Shown here: in pieces, positions 54,644 to 62,732 of the stretch
Layout: each line of letters opens with the position of its first letter
How positions within the stretch are numbered: position 1 is the stretch's first letter
Source: Ktedonobacteraceae bacterium
Lineage (GTDB): Bacteria; Chloroflexota; Ktedonobacteria; Ktedonobacterales; Ktedonobacteraceae
DNA length: 64,000 bases
NCBI GenBank assembly: GCA_035653615.1
Contig: DASRBN010000027.1
Span: 62,001 to 126,000, forward strand
Direction of reading: 5' to 3'
Translations under genes and position numbers: made by a program
Notes under the pieces: model-generated
Told to the model about the DNA's origin: nothing
Databases searched by the model: none
What the model saw: only the letters and a program-made list of their open reading frames with translations

Positions 54644-55423
54644 ATGATTACGAATTGGGGCACAGCGATATTTAACGCGTTAAGTAACGCCGTCAACCTC
54701 ATCCTCACTTTCATCCCCAGGTTGATCGGGTTTCTGGTCATCCTGGTCGTTGGACTGATCATTGCCACATTGGTTAGCAAAGCGTTGACCTTCCTGTTGC
54801 GCAAGATCGGTTTTGACCGGCTCTCGGATCGCATTGGTCTGACGCGCTTCGAGCAGCGCATGGGTGTGCGGATGGATGCTGCCGGCATTTTAGGCAAGAT
54901 CGTGTACTGGTTCATCCTGCTGATCTTCCTGGTTCCTGCGGCGGATGCGCTCGGTCTTCCCACCGTGAGCAACATTTTGAACACCCTGGTGGCCTACATT
55001 CCGAATGTCTTTGTGGCCATTTTGGTGCTGTTCCTGGGCAGCCTGGCCGCCACCGTCGTGGCTGACCTGGTACGCGGAACGGTGGCTTCCGCCAACATTG
55101 GCAATCCCAACATCCTCGCGGGCATTGCGCGCTGGGCCATCATCGGCTTCGCCGCGCTTATCGCGCTGGAGCAGTTAAAGATTGCCCCGGCCCTCATCAA
55201 CGAACTGTTTGGTGCCATGGTAGCCGCGCTGGCGATTGCATTTGGCCTGGCCTTTGGACTGGGCGGACAGGATGCAGCCCGCCGCTGGCTCGCGCGCGGT
55301 GAAAGCACAGTGAGCAATGCTGCCGAGCAGATCGACCCGCAACAGGTCAAGGAGCAGGCACGTGCTGCCGCGCAGGTGCAGGAAGATCAGATGCGGCCAG
55401 GAGTCAGACGCGTTAGCCGGTGA
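54644..55423 (+). CDS. Conserved TM-helix (small-conductance channel-like) membrane protein
   Basis: 259 residues with about four to five membrane helices, including PRLIGFLVILVVGLIIATLV and IPNVFVAILVLFLGSLAATV, each followed by a repeated-type segment. It resembles the conserved TM helix repeat proteins related to mechanosensitive channels (CmpX-like), but no MscS beta domain follows. A long Gln/Ala-rich cytoplasmic tail ends the protein. AAGGAGGA precedes the ATG by 6 bases. It may help the cell with envelope tension or osmotic stress; a paralog with a complete MscS domain is at 59538. Confidence 0.84.
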   Translation: MITNWGTAIFNALSNAVNLILTFIPRLIGFLVILVVGLIIATLVSKALTFLLRKIGFDRLSDRIGLTRFEQRMGVRMDAAGILGKIVYWFILLIFLVPAADALGLPTVSNILNTLVAYIPNVFVAILVLFLGSLAATVVADLVRGTVASANIGNPNILAGIARWAIIGFAALIALEQLKIAPALINELFGAMVAALAIAFGLAFGLGGQDAARRWLARGESTVSNAAEQIDPQQVKEQARAAAQVQEDQMRPGVRRVSR

Positions 55424-59537: not shown

Positions 59538-60428
59538 ATGGATTTTCAGCCACTTGTCAACTCACTTACCCAAACCTTTCTCGAAATCATTAATTTTATT
59601 CCACGCCTCATTAATGGCTTAATTATTCTCATTATTGGCTACCTGATAAGCTGGCTGGTGCGCTGGATTGTACGCTTTATCCTCCGGCACATCGGCTTTG
59701 AGCAAGTAGCCGAACGTACTGGCATCCACAACACGATGAGAGGAATGCGAGTAAACACAGGCTTGCCCGAAATAATAGCTCAAATCGTCTTCTATTTCCT
59801 GCTGCTGAGTTTTGCGGCATCGGCGCTACGCTTGATGGCGTTTACCGCGGTGGCCGACTTGCTGGACAATGTACTTAGCTTCTTACCGAGGGCCATCGGC
59901 GCAGCCCTGCTGATCATTTTTGGCTCAATGCTTGCGCGCTTCCTGGGCAATACCATCATGACCATAGCTGATAATGTGAATATCACATATGGCAGAGTGC
60001 TGGGCAGAATTATCGAATATATGGTGGTGGCATTTGTGATCGTGCTGGCAGTTTCAACGCTCGGAGTAGATACCACCATTCTCACCACCAGCCTCACCAT
60101 CATCATCGCCTCAGCGGGCCTGGCAGTGGCTCTCACCTTTGCATTGGGATCGCGCGAGTCAGCTCGCAACGTCATAGCCGGTTATTATGTAAGGCAAAAC
60201 TTTCAACCCGGCCAGCAGCTTACACTCGGTGATTATAGCGGTACGGTTCGCACGACTTCTGGCGCCTACACAGTCCTTGAGGTAACTGGCGAAGAGGGCC
60301 AGCTCAGAACAATTTCGCTGCCCAACTCTCTACTGCTGCAAAGTGCGGTTGCGGGCCAGGAAACCAGTTCTGAGGCCACGAACCAGGCGAATGACAAAAC
60401 TGAGGGGTCAGATAATCCAACTGAGTAG
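59538..60428 (+). CDS. Small-conductance mechanosensitive channel (MscS) family protein
   Basis: 296 residues with an N-terminal conserved TM helix, PRLINGLIILIIGYLISWLV, about five helices in all, and a C-terminal MscS-type beta domain (about 215-275: VIAGYYVRQNFQPGQQLTLG, YSGTVRTTSGAYTVLEVTG). Channels of this family open under membrane tension and release ions. It is a paralog of the gene at 54644, which lacks the beta domain. Sigma and anti-sigma genes lie upstream. Its last two codons and stop overlap the left copy of the tRNA-Leu attachment repeat. Confidence 0.88.
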   Translation: MDFQPLVNSLTQTFLEIINFIPRLINGLIILIIGYLISWLVRWIVRFILRHIGFEQVAERTGIHNTMRGMRVNTGLPEIIAQIVFYFLLLSFAASALRLMAFTAVADLLDNVLSFLPRAIGAALLIIFGSMLARFLGNTIMTIADNVNITYGRVLGRIIEYMVVAFVIVLAVSTLGVDTTILTTSLTIIIASAGLAVALTFALGSRESARNVIAGYYVRQNFQPGQQLTLGDYSGTVRTTSGAYTVLEVTGEEGQLRTISLPNSLLLQSAVAGQETSSEATNQANDKTEGSDNPTE

Positions 60429-60479
60429 GGCGGGAGGGAATCGAACCCTCACGGACTCACCGTCCCGGAGATTTTAAGT
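60421..60479. repeat. Left attachment-site repeat (partial tRNA-Leu copy)
   Basis: 59 bases identical to 62644-62702; 60426-60479 is a copy of the 3' part of the tRNA-Leu gene. It starts CTGAGTAGGGCGGGAGGGAA. It is the displaced original 3' end of the tRNA, as expected after tyrosine-recombinase integration. Confidence 0.9.
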
Positions 60480-60481
60480 TC

Positions 60482-60664
60482 TACCTTCAGCGCGGCGGTG
60501 AGGTCTTTAAGCTCTCGCGTGAGATGGGACATAGCACGGTACAGGTAACAGAAATCTATCTCAAAGATTATCGTAGTTCTGAAGCCCGGCGTGAACACAC
60601 GTCATATTCTCCTATTGCTGAGATTGACTCGGTGGGGAAGAAGAGGAGGAAAAAAGAGCAATAG
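60482..60664 (+). pseudogene. C-terminal fragment of a tyrosine recombinase/integrase
   Basis: In the frame of 60482 it reads YLQRGGEVFKLSREMGHSTV, then QVTEIYLKDYRSSEARREH. The GHSTVQVTEIYLKDY stretch carries the box II His and the catalytic Tyr (in IYLKDY) of tyrosine recombinases. All earlier catalytic residues are absent, because the frame begins directly at the attachment repeat. It shows that an integrase gene once lay at this edge of the element. Confidence 0.87.
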
Positions 60665-60699
60665 TGATTCCCGTTTACATGCGTTCTACATCCGCTACC

Positions 60700-60825
60700 T
60701 GTCCGATAATTTCATCAGACTTTTCCAATATCGGACATCAATTAACGGGCACGAAAAGTTCTAAAACGTAAAATATGTACAAAAAGAGAGGATATCGGAC
60801 AAGATATCGGACAAGGTATCGGACA
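60700..60825. promoter_or_regulatory. Five TATCGGACA sites (iteron- or operator-like)
   Basis: One TGTCCGATA (60700-60708) facing a TATCGGACA (60729-60737), then three direct copies at 60793, 60805 and 60817, spaced exactly 12 bases. They end about 100 bases before the AlbA_2 gene and are likely binding sites for its product or another element-encoded protein. Confidence 0.75.
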
Positions 60826-60921
60826 GGTGGCGATAAGGCGGGAGAAGGCTGTTTGAAGTTACTTGTTTCTGCTACAATGAAGCTGTTCAAGGACACCGGG
60901 TTTTATGCTGTGGAGGTCGCA

Positions 60922-62403
60922 ATGGCAAGGTTAAATGAAATAGCTCTCAGGCGTTTGATTAAAGGTGGTGAGACCGCTACCGTTGAGTTCAAAGTAGCGG
61001 TTCCCAGACCTGTCGAGATGGCTGAAAGATTGTGTGGTATGGCTAATGCCCAGGGCGGAATGATTATTATTGGAGTTGAGGATGCAGAGCGTAAAGTAGT
61101 GGGTGTCCCTGAAGAGCGCATGGCACTGACAAAGGATGTGATAGTAAGAGCTACTCGCCAGATCATTAAGCCTGCGCTGGTACTTGATCCCCCTGAGCCT
61201 GAAATTTATGAAATAGATGGAAAGCAGTTAGTAGTTGCCACAGTGCCCTCAAATAATGGATCTATCTATCAGTCAGGCGGAGTTTGTTGGGTGAGGCTTA
61301 GTACACATACTGTGCCATTAAGCGTGTCCGAATTAATCGAAATGGCCAATGACCGTGCGCTTATCCATTGGGAATTGCTGCCGGCTCGCAATGCTGTCAT
61401 GGAAGATATTGATTTAGAGAAAGTAGAAGTTTATTTACGACGGCGTTCGATGGGAGGCCGACAAACTGGTCGTTTTGAGGATATAGAGCAGGTATTGATC
61501 GGCATGGAGTGCGCTGTTGTCGTCGATGGAAAAGTAGTTCCTACGAACGCTGGCATATTGTTCTTCGGGCATGAGCCACAAATGCGAATAATGCAAAGCG
61601 AGATAGATTGTGTTTTATTCCGTGGAGCAATGGGGGCGAGCCGCTATACTGATAAGAAAGTCATCATGGGAACGGTGCAGGAATTAATAGATGGCGCAGA
61701 GACTTTCCTGCGGAGCTATATGCCAGTGGAGGGAAAGGTAGAGGGATGGAAGAGGGTTGATATACCGGAGTATCCAGTCGAGGCACTGCGAGAGGCGCTT
61801 GTAAACGCGGTCATACATCGCGATTATAGCCGGTACGGAGAAAGCATACGCGTGTTTTATTATGCCGACCGCATTGAAATACACAGTCCAGGTATGCTTC
61901 TTCCGGGGGTCACGGTTGAACAGATGGCAAAGGGGGAGGTGCAATCGAGGCTGCGCAATCCTGTGTTAGCGAATTTGCTGAGGGATGTTCCGGGTTATAT
62001 GGAGCGCATTGGAAGTGGCATTCGATTTATGTTGGACGAGACCAGACGTGTGGGGCTTCCCGCCCCTCAGTTTCGGGAAATGAGCGAGTTTATCGTTACT
62101 TTTCGCAGTGCTGCTATCTCACCTGGCTTGAGGACGCGAGAGCTGCGTATGAGCGAAACTTTGTGGGATGATGAACAGTTGCCGCCTTTGCCCACCTCGG
62201 CTGAGGAGCTTTCTGACCAGGAGCGAAGGCTAGCAAAAGCGATAGTGTATGTTCATGAACATGGCTTCATCACGAATGGTTTGTATAGAGAAATAACGGG
62301 TACGACAGAAAAAAGGGCTTTTCGTGATTTGGAAGTGCTAGTCGAGCGTGGAAGATTAAAGCGTATGGGCTCAAAACGGGGGAGGCGGTACGAACTACCA
62401 TAG
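60922..62403 (+). CDS. AlbA_2 (Schlafen-type) DNA-binding / ATPase-fold regulator
   Basis: About 493 residues from ATG 60922 (GGAGG 7 bases upstream). The N-terminal AlbA_2 domain (about 10-125) has ETATVEFKVAVPRP and GGMIIIGVEDAERKVVGVP. The middle (about 330-440) is the ATP-binding HATPase_c-like module found in COG2865 proteins: ALREALVNAVIHRDYSRYG, IRVFYYADRIEIHSPG, MERIGSGIRFML. A C-terminal wHTH-like segment (TNGLYREITGTTEKRAFRDL, VERGRLKRMGSKRGRR) may bind DNA. An upstream frame from 60775 only adds the YRTRYRTRYRT encoded by the repeats. Family members are accessory-element regulators of unknown target; this copy lies between attachment sites. Confidence 0.9.
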   Translation: MARLNEIALRRLIKGGETATVEFKVAVPRPVEMAERLCGMANAQGGMIIIGVEDAERKVVGVPEERMALTKDVIVRATRQIIKPALVLDPPEPEIYEIDGKQLVVATVPSNNGSIYQSGGVCWVRLSTHTVPLSVSELIEMANDRALIHWELLPARNAVMEDIDLEKVEVYLRRRSMGGRQTGRFEDIEQVLIGMECAVVVDGKVVPTNAGILFFGHEPQMRIMQSEIDCVLFRGAMGASRYTDKKVIMGTVQELIDGAETFLRSYMPVEGKVEGWKRVDIPEYPVEALREALVNAVIHRDYSRYGESIRVFYYADRIEIHSPGMLLPGVTVEQMAKGEVQSRLRNPVLANLLRDVPGYMERIGSGIRFMLDETRRVGLPAPQFREMSEFIVTFRSAAISPGLRTRELRMSETLWDDEQLPPLPTSAEELSDQERRLAKAIVYVHEHGFITNGLYREITGTTEKRAFRDLEVLVERGRLKRMGSKRGRRYELP

Positions 62404-62498: not shown

Positions 62499-62552
62499 AC
62501 AATAGCCCTCCACAGCGGAGATTGATGCGTCTCCGTTGCGGAGGGCTATTGT
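62499..62552. terminator. 23-base-arm hairpin after the AlbA_2 gene
   Basis: ACAATAGCCCTCCACAGCGG AGA (62499-62521) pairs with TCTCCGTTGCGGAGGGCTAT TGT (62530-62552), two mismatches, loop TTGATGCG. It lies about 100 bases after the stop and may end the transcript or be a protein-binding site. Confidence 0.55.
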
Positions 62553-62643: not shown

Positions 62644-62702
62644 CTGAGTAGGGCGGGAGGGAATCGAACCCTCACGGACTCACCGTCCCGGAGATTTTAA
62701 GT
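62644..62702. repeat. Right attachment-site repeat, within tRNA-Leu
   Basis: Mate of 60421-60479 and 59 of 59 identical. It lies across the 3' half of the intact tRNA-Leu and five bases beyond, a typical layout for element integration into a tRNA gene 3' end. Confidence 0.9.
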
Positions 62703-62732
62703 CTCCTGCGTCTACCATTTCGCCACCGCCCC
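62649..62732 (-). tRNA. tRNA-Leu (TAA anticodon)
   Basis: 84 nt, minus strand. Acceptor stem GGGGCGG pairs with CCGCCCT (one G-T), T-arm GAGGGTTCGAATCCCTC, anticodon loop ACTTAAAAT reading TAA, and a long variable arm typical of leucine tRNA. The CCA end is not encoded. An integrated element lies directly downstream of the 3' end (towards lower coordinates). Confidence 0.93.

Follow-up and report, generated by a model that had tools for sequence, protein, structure and literature searches.

The closest solved structure to the protein studied here is the COG2865-type protein DIP2311 (PDB 3lmm), by sequence (6.7e-20, the best PDB match) as well as by fold (7.8e-22, Foldseek), and the two share a three-part architecture of AlbA_2, HATPase_c_4 and winged helix. 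AlbA_2 and HATPase_c_4 are likewise combined in TrlG of the Photorhabdus temperature-restriction operon, which includes a separate regulator gene, trlR (PMC7554251). BREX-associated Schlafen RNases with a minimal histidine kinase and a wHTH have the same domain order as our protein and, in the part of the published account drawn on here, are proposed to be backup antiviral effectors; that part treats the protein domains and makes no mention of DNA repeats at the genes (PMC12839542). For no COG2865-type member did we find an operator or repeat array described in the open-licence literature.

Direct-repeat arrays that are bound cooperatively by small DNA-binding proteins are familiar from ParR/parC, TubR/tubC and iterons. 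The locus described here resembles these systems in having several repeats, spaced by about one helical turn, next to the gene of their proposed reader. It differs from them in that a large ATPase-like protein is proposed to do the reading, through a tethered winged helix, that the unit varies among relatives and that the array often lies within coding sequence. A coupling of such arrays with a winged helix was not found in any published report in the open-licence literature, preprints excluded. Here we analyse an array at 60700-60825 of a 64-kb stretch of DNA (the window, meaning the whole stretch) and propose, with a probability of about two in three, that it acts as a cooperative autoregulatory operator read by the winged helix of the protein encoded next to it.

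A repeat array ahead of an AlbA_2 gene

The sequence-only reading of this DNA had described five exact sites of TATCGGACA, a 9-base word, ahead of an AlbA_2 gene, and all five were found upstream of the gene's promoter (Table 1). The geometry that it gave is borne out by the coordinates: sites 3, 4 and 5 lie 12 bp apart, start to start, and the inverted pair formed by sites 1 and 2 ends 55 bp ahead of them. The outermost copies are part of a longer, 16-nt inverted repeat (94%). No further exact copy occurs within the 64-kb window, and the array score of 20.5 was matched in none of 200 dinucleotide shuffles of the upstream region (shuffle mean 0.1).

A genome-wide scan for clusters outside the element, suggested in the same reading, gave a clean positive result, with clustering at the window element only. 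Across the 6.59-Mb genome the word occurs 34 times and the reversed control word 85 times; 29 of the 34 copies are isolated, the array at 60700-60825 is the sole cluster, and a second direct-orientation pair no more than 30 bp apart is found nowhere in the genome. The 29 isolated copies could serve an unrelated factor, and it is conceivable that a host regulator other than the AlbA_2 protein binds the array. We consider this highly improbable, because the word is less frequent than its reversed control and forms a cluster nowhere else, and because the units of relatives and paralogs change as the winged helix of the AlbA_2 protein changes. As a candidate widespread signal, the word was rejected: 13 viral contigs carry a pair of copies at 12-bp spacing, but their contexts are unrelated, and among the matches listed the reversed control word gives a similar number at spacing 12. 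An exact TATCGGACA array was present in 0 of 200 relatives. The word is private to the window gene, whereas the architecture is common to the family.

The array sites span -222 to -97 relative to the AlbA_2 start codon, leaving 47 bp between the end of site 5 and a -10-like box. The start that had been proposed at 60922 is backed by homologous N-termini (MGKLSE, MPKLSD and so on), by the GGAGG ahead of it and by the -10-like box itself, which is conserved 45-55 bp ahead of the start in the window gene and eight relatives and was not picked up by a generic promoter scan. The longer frame said to encode YRTRYRTRYRT does read through the repeats, giving MYKKRGYRTRYRTRYRTGG. Because the start at 60922 holds, the repeats are upstream non-coding DNA and the YRTRYRT reading is accidental.

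The encoded protein passes the family cut-offs for both Pfam SLFN_AlbA_2 (PF04326; 60970-61320, 1.8e-16, 61.1 bits against a curated cut-off of 25.3) and HATPase_c_4 (PF13749; 61837-62103, 6.8e-24, 84.1 bits against a curated cut-off of 26), and its AlbA_2 domain has fold similarity to Schlafen N-domains (Foldseek). The full AlphaFold2 model (mean pLDDT 85.5) comprises a confident core, a disordered segment at residues 399-429 and a winged helix at residues 432-491, which is built as helix-helix-helix-strand-strand and reaches a pLDDT of 90.9 when modelled alone. Pfam HTH families (DeoR-like or DIP2311-C) match this winged helix in relatives only.

Table 1 Positions, within the window, of the array, the AlbA_2 gene and the features around them
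Feature	Position	Strand	Basis or remark
Left att-like repeat, displaced 3' half of tRNA-Leu	60421-60479	not assigned	perfect 59-bp direct repeat of 62644-62702
Tyrosine-type integrase C-terminal remnant (LSREMGHSTVQVTEIYLKDY)	60480-60664	+	open frame and motif by eye; abuts att copy
Outer arm CGCTACCTGTCCGATA	60693-60708	-	extended inverted unit copy holding site 1
Site 1, TATCGGACA	60700-60708	-	exact copy
Site 2, TATCGGACA	60729-60737	+	exact copy
Site 3, TATCGGACA	60793-60801	+	exact copy
Site 4, TATCGGACA	60805-60813	+	exact copy, 12 bp past site 3
Site 5, TATCGGACA	60817-60825	+	exact copy, part of the 16-nt arm 60817-60832
16-nt arm TATCGGACAGGTGGCG	60817-60832	+	extended site 5, inverted partner of 60693-60708
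Probable extended -10 box, TGC-TACAAT	60873-60878	+	-49 from start; counterparts in eight relatives
Ribosome-binding site, GGAGG	60912-60916	+	sequence
AlbA_2 - HATPase_c_4 - winged-helix protein, 493 aa	60922-62403	+	Pfam, AlphaFold2
Disordered linker, residues 399-429	62116-62208	+	pLDDT <50
C-terminal winged helix, proposed array reader	62215-62394	+	AlphaFold2; Pfam matches of relatives
Inverted repeat past the gene, possible bidirectional terminator	62499-62552	not assigned
tRNA-Leu(TAA)	62648-62732	-	holds right att-like repeat 62644-62702

Promoter arrays in close relatives

Promoter-proximal repeats, with differing units, were found in 10 of 11 close relatives (47-71% identity), at scores reached in no more than 4 of 200 shuffles. 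Ahead of their AlbA_2 genes, L251 carries five copies of ATCCGCCATCC at 11 bp spacing, L004 four copies of TTCAGACATTTC at 12 bp and L284 three to four copies of AATCTCCCCAT at 11 bp; two- or three-copy upstream repeats are present in L253, L255, L280, L281, L282, L283 and L285. The eleventh relative, L252, has irregular copies recognized by eye (units ATYTCCYCAT), and by eye L301 and L302 also have irregularly spaced copies, on both sides of the -10 box. The last copy stops 6-7 bp upstream of the -10 box in L252, L253, L284 and L285, which is the classical position of a repressor. Judged from these sequences, the place and architecture of the array are conserved among close relatives and the word is not. 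A universal core word, WTG-NNN-GAW, which was noticed post hoc, fits several of them, fails or is weak in L252, L281, L258 and L284, and amounts to a hint only.

Arrays are not universal. Several subfamilies are without them, including distant Chloroflexota homologs (at 30-33% identity, n = 20 and most reaching into the winged helix, an array was found in L263 only) and most phage homologs (n = 44, with arrays in 7 of the 38 long ones and none in the other 31).

Arrays across the wider family

For the wide sample, a single scan covering 84,980 species supplied 80 homologs, 26-53% identical and distributed over many bacterial phyla and archaea. Their gene regions (141 kb in total) contained 44 tandem arrays with a period of 9-12 and the flanks (363 kb) contained 5, an enrichment of about 20-fold, with detection thresholds that vary slightly between scripts. 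A neighbouring paralog accounts for one of the 44, and three of the five assigned to flanks are themselves inside genes for AlbA_2 or winged-helix proteins. Arrays were present in 43 of 60 full-length members, counting as full-length L357, whose winged helix is in a shifted frame, compared with 1 of 13 short members lacking the winged helix. The short plasmid homologs of TrlF operons (L382 and L383) differ from the window gene in that array and winged helix are both absent. Beside the short member L379, an array lies ahead of a transposase-like gene.

Within the family, arrays occur upstream of the gene, in the codons of the HATPase-to-winged-helix linker, over the stop codon and downstream. 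Linker arrays in relatives fall in DNA coding for the disordered linker, a predicted feature that should tolerate a sequence imposed by a DNA signal. Most of them have a period of 12 and encode VNEG- or TTQK-type repeats there, as would be expected of an origin at the level of the protein or of mutation, in which the repeats are tetrapeptide linkers or slippage minisatellites with no part in DNA binding and the window array arose by chance or by decay of a coding linker. The HsdS subunits of type I systems, which carry tetrapeptide spacer repeats, provide a precedent. Several features make this origin distinctly unlikely in our estimation. A non-triplet period is found in 10 of the 33 linker arrays, being 10 in L337, L338, L354 and L365 and 11 in L334, L349, L362, L364, L415 and L417, and in Poribacteria the stop codon belongs to the repeat itself; because periods of 10 and 11 scramble the encoded peptide and the repeat can hold a stop codon, we argue that selection acts on the DNA. 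Other arrays run over stop codons or lie downstream or upstream, the window array is outside its gene, and the unit goes with the winged helix whatever the position of the array.

Two contigs carry further variants. On an Elusimicrobia contig (L341, 1596-5967), three tandem AlbA_2 paralogs have linker arrays that are all different (GGGAGAAAACTA, CCCCCCAGAGTG and AAACTAGGGAAG). An 'upstream' array in L341 that was considered as position-independent evidence is actually the linker array of the neighbouring paralog, and was excluded from the Mantel test described below. L340 (3418-4900) encodes a zinc-ribbon and PD-(D/E)XK-like protein with a TGGYYLT-like winged helix at its end and a GGTGTAAATGGC array before the winged helix, indicating that the pairing of winged helix and array is not confined to AlbA_2 proteins.

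Co-variation of repeat unit and winged helix

Winged-helix classes, drawn by eye and noticed post hoc, go with different words: the GGHWEV type with ACT-nnn-GAGAAA-like words at 12 bp, the TGGYYLT type with TGA-n-GG-n-RTAA at 12 bp, the KYRLT-KG type with AGTnnGnACC, mostly at 11 bp, and the GRSTYY type with CGATTA-like words at 10 bp in linkers. Among the seven array-bearing phage-borne homologs, which were added after the classes had been drawn, word and period are as expected from the class in L401, L415 and L417, fit it partly in L405, L407 and L418, and do not fit in L413. A search of 400 Chloroflexota genomes for genes with TGGYYLT-type winged helices returned four weak matches.

Co-variation was tested independently of the by-eye classes, using partial Mantel correlation on 53 arrays, 33 of them linker arrays, which takes the tree into account only in part. 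Word similarity correlated with winged-helix similarity given the core of the protein (0.38, 0 of 2,000 permutations), and its correlation with core similarity given the winged helix was -0.01. Co-variation of linker arrays can partly reflect linker and winged helix having been inherited jointly. Pairs whose arrays lie at different positions (n = 744) are informative because joint inheritance cannot explain them; their partial correlation was 0.146 (1 of 2,000 permutations), a small effect. The repeat unit tracks the winged helix and shows no such link to the remainder of the protein, a pattern suggesting that this protein recognizes its own gene.

A model for autoregulation

In the autoregulatory operator that we propose, several AlbA_2-HATPase proteins would sit side by side on the recognition words of the array, which lie about one helical turn apart and upstream of the gene's own promoter. 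Each protein would make contact through its C-terminal winged helix, tethered by a flexible linker of about 30 residues to the AlbA_2-HATPase assembly. We infer that this binding is cooperative, and the inverted copies at the outside may assist in looping the complex or closing it. Once bound, the protein would most likely repress its own promoter, an effect that we favour because several relatives have a last copy that overlaps the -35/-10 spacer. The last site of the window array lies too far upstream of its -10 box, at the 47 bp given above, for simple steric repression to be obvious, and activation or looping is therefore possible. Release would follow when the AlbA_2 part (a Schlafen-like nucleic-acid module) and the GHKL ATPase part sense a putative signal.

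A broader proposal, which we hold to be evenly poised between right and wrong, is that winged helix and helical-turn-spaced array together form an 'address' module of Schlafen-like AlbA_2-HATPase proteins in bacteria as well as archaea. Such a module would be mobile, would use a private word in each lineage, with word and winged helix diversifying jointly, and would occupy whatever position the gene can accommodate (promoter, linker codons, stop codon or 3' flank), in other protein families too. If true, a large and poorly understood Schlafen-type family tied to mobile elements and antiviral islands would gain a concrete DNA target, readable directly in the sequence of the gene itself, and tetrapeptide repeats in Schlafen-type proteins would be explained as DNA-binding sites, not protein features. 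The family would also offer a natural series of pairs of winged helix and recognition word for decoding winged-helix specificity.

A tRNA-Leu element around the array

The array lies in a 2.2-kb segment bracketed by 59-bp repeats of the 3' half of tRNA-Leu(TAA), whose content is an integrase remnant, the array, the AlbA_2 gene and the tRNA-Leu. The remnant (61 aa), which was identified by eye, has no Pfam match and no second copy in the genome. It is fused directly to the att-like tRNA copy, with its open frame continuing through the tRNA fragment, and the junction looks like the product of a deletion or an aberrant recombination that truncated the gene at this point. The genome holds one other AlbA_2 gene, 61% identical to the window gene and provided with a TTCAGACATTTC array, in a 2.6-kb segment between 132-bp repeats that begin in the 3' end of a tRNA-Leu(CAA) gene. 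Both genes are flanked by tRNA-Leu, suggesting that the gene travels in small tRNA-Leu elements, which are now probably non-autonomous.

A tRNA-Leu was near 6 of 10 extended loci with the own-genome paralog counted (5 of 10 fetched regions plus the window). In the window and in L387, L388, L389, L390 and L393, the AlbA_2 gene lies near a tRNA-Leu whose 3' end faces it; the anticodons are TAA or CAA, and no other tRNA type occurs near these genes in the stretches covered. Human SLFN11 cleaves tRNA-Leu(TAA); the proximity seen here may be an insertion-site preference or more than that. The streptococcal satellite phage L384 has a distant homolog flanked by the integrase and a repressor gene, and no array was found there.

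This setting raises the alternative that the array serves the mobility of the element, as arm-type integrase or excisionase (directionality factor) sites near an att end. The array is 220-400 bp inside the left att-like repeat and beside the integrase remnant, the own-genome paralog is likewise in a tRNA-Leu-flanked segment, and an integrase adjoins AlbA_2 in L384 and in L388, where the homolog lies between integrase and tRNA-Leu(TAA). We nevertheless think a mobility function unlikely, as equivalent arrays stand with no nearby tRNA (L251, L301, L302 and L253) or integrase (L251), arrays are also found in coding linkers and at 3' ends, and the unit varies with the winged helix of the AlbA_2 protein.

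The sequence-only reading had offered 'an iteron or cooperative operator', and its first half, in which a complex of protein and array would replicate or partition a parent element in the manner of an iteron or centromere-like site, now seems very unlikely. A homolog does adjoin parA/parB in two Candidatus Chlorohelix plasmids (L385, 2004-5095; L394, 8516-12060), and the winged helix is weakly similar to the centromere-binding protein AspA (Foldseek, E about 0.01). However, the majority of close relatives sit on chromosomes, and the stretches covered around these showed neither rep nor par genes. The window element is chromosomal, being placed between tRNA-Leu att-like repeats, and it lacks a replication gene. 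Of the two readings the cooperative operator is preferable, strengthened by the different yet equivalent promoter-proximal arrays of relatives and by the co-variation of the unit with the winged helix.

Upstream of the AlbA_2 gene in L385, ATGGCGGAT-like copies lie 12 bp apart, accompanied by an inverted copy. Elsewhere in the window, two mechanosensitive-channel-like membrane proteins are encoded at 54644-55423 and 59538-60428, the second with a Pfam MS_channel_1st_1 match, and two proteins with repeated conserved domains are encoded between 55317 and 57211.
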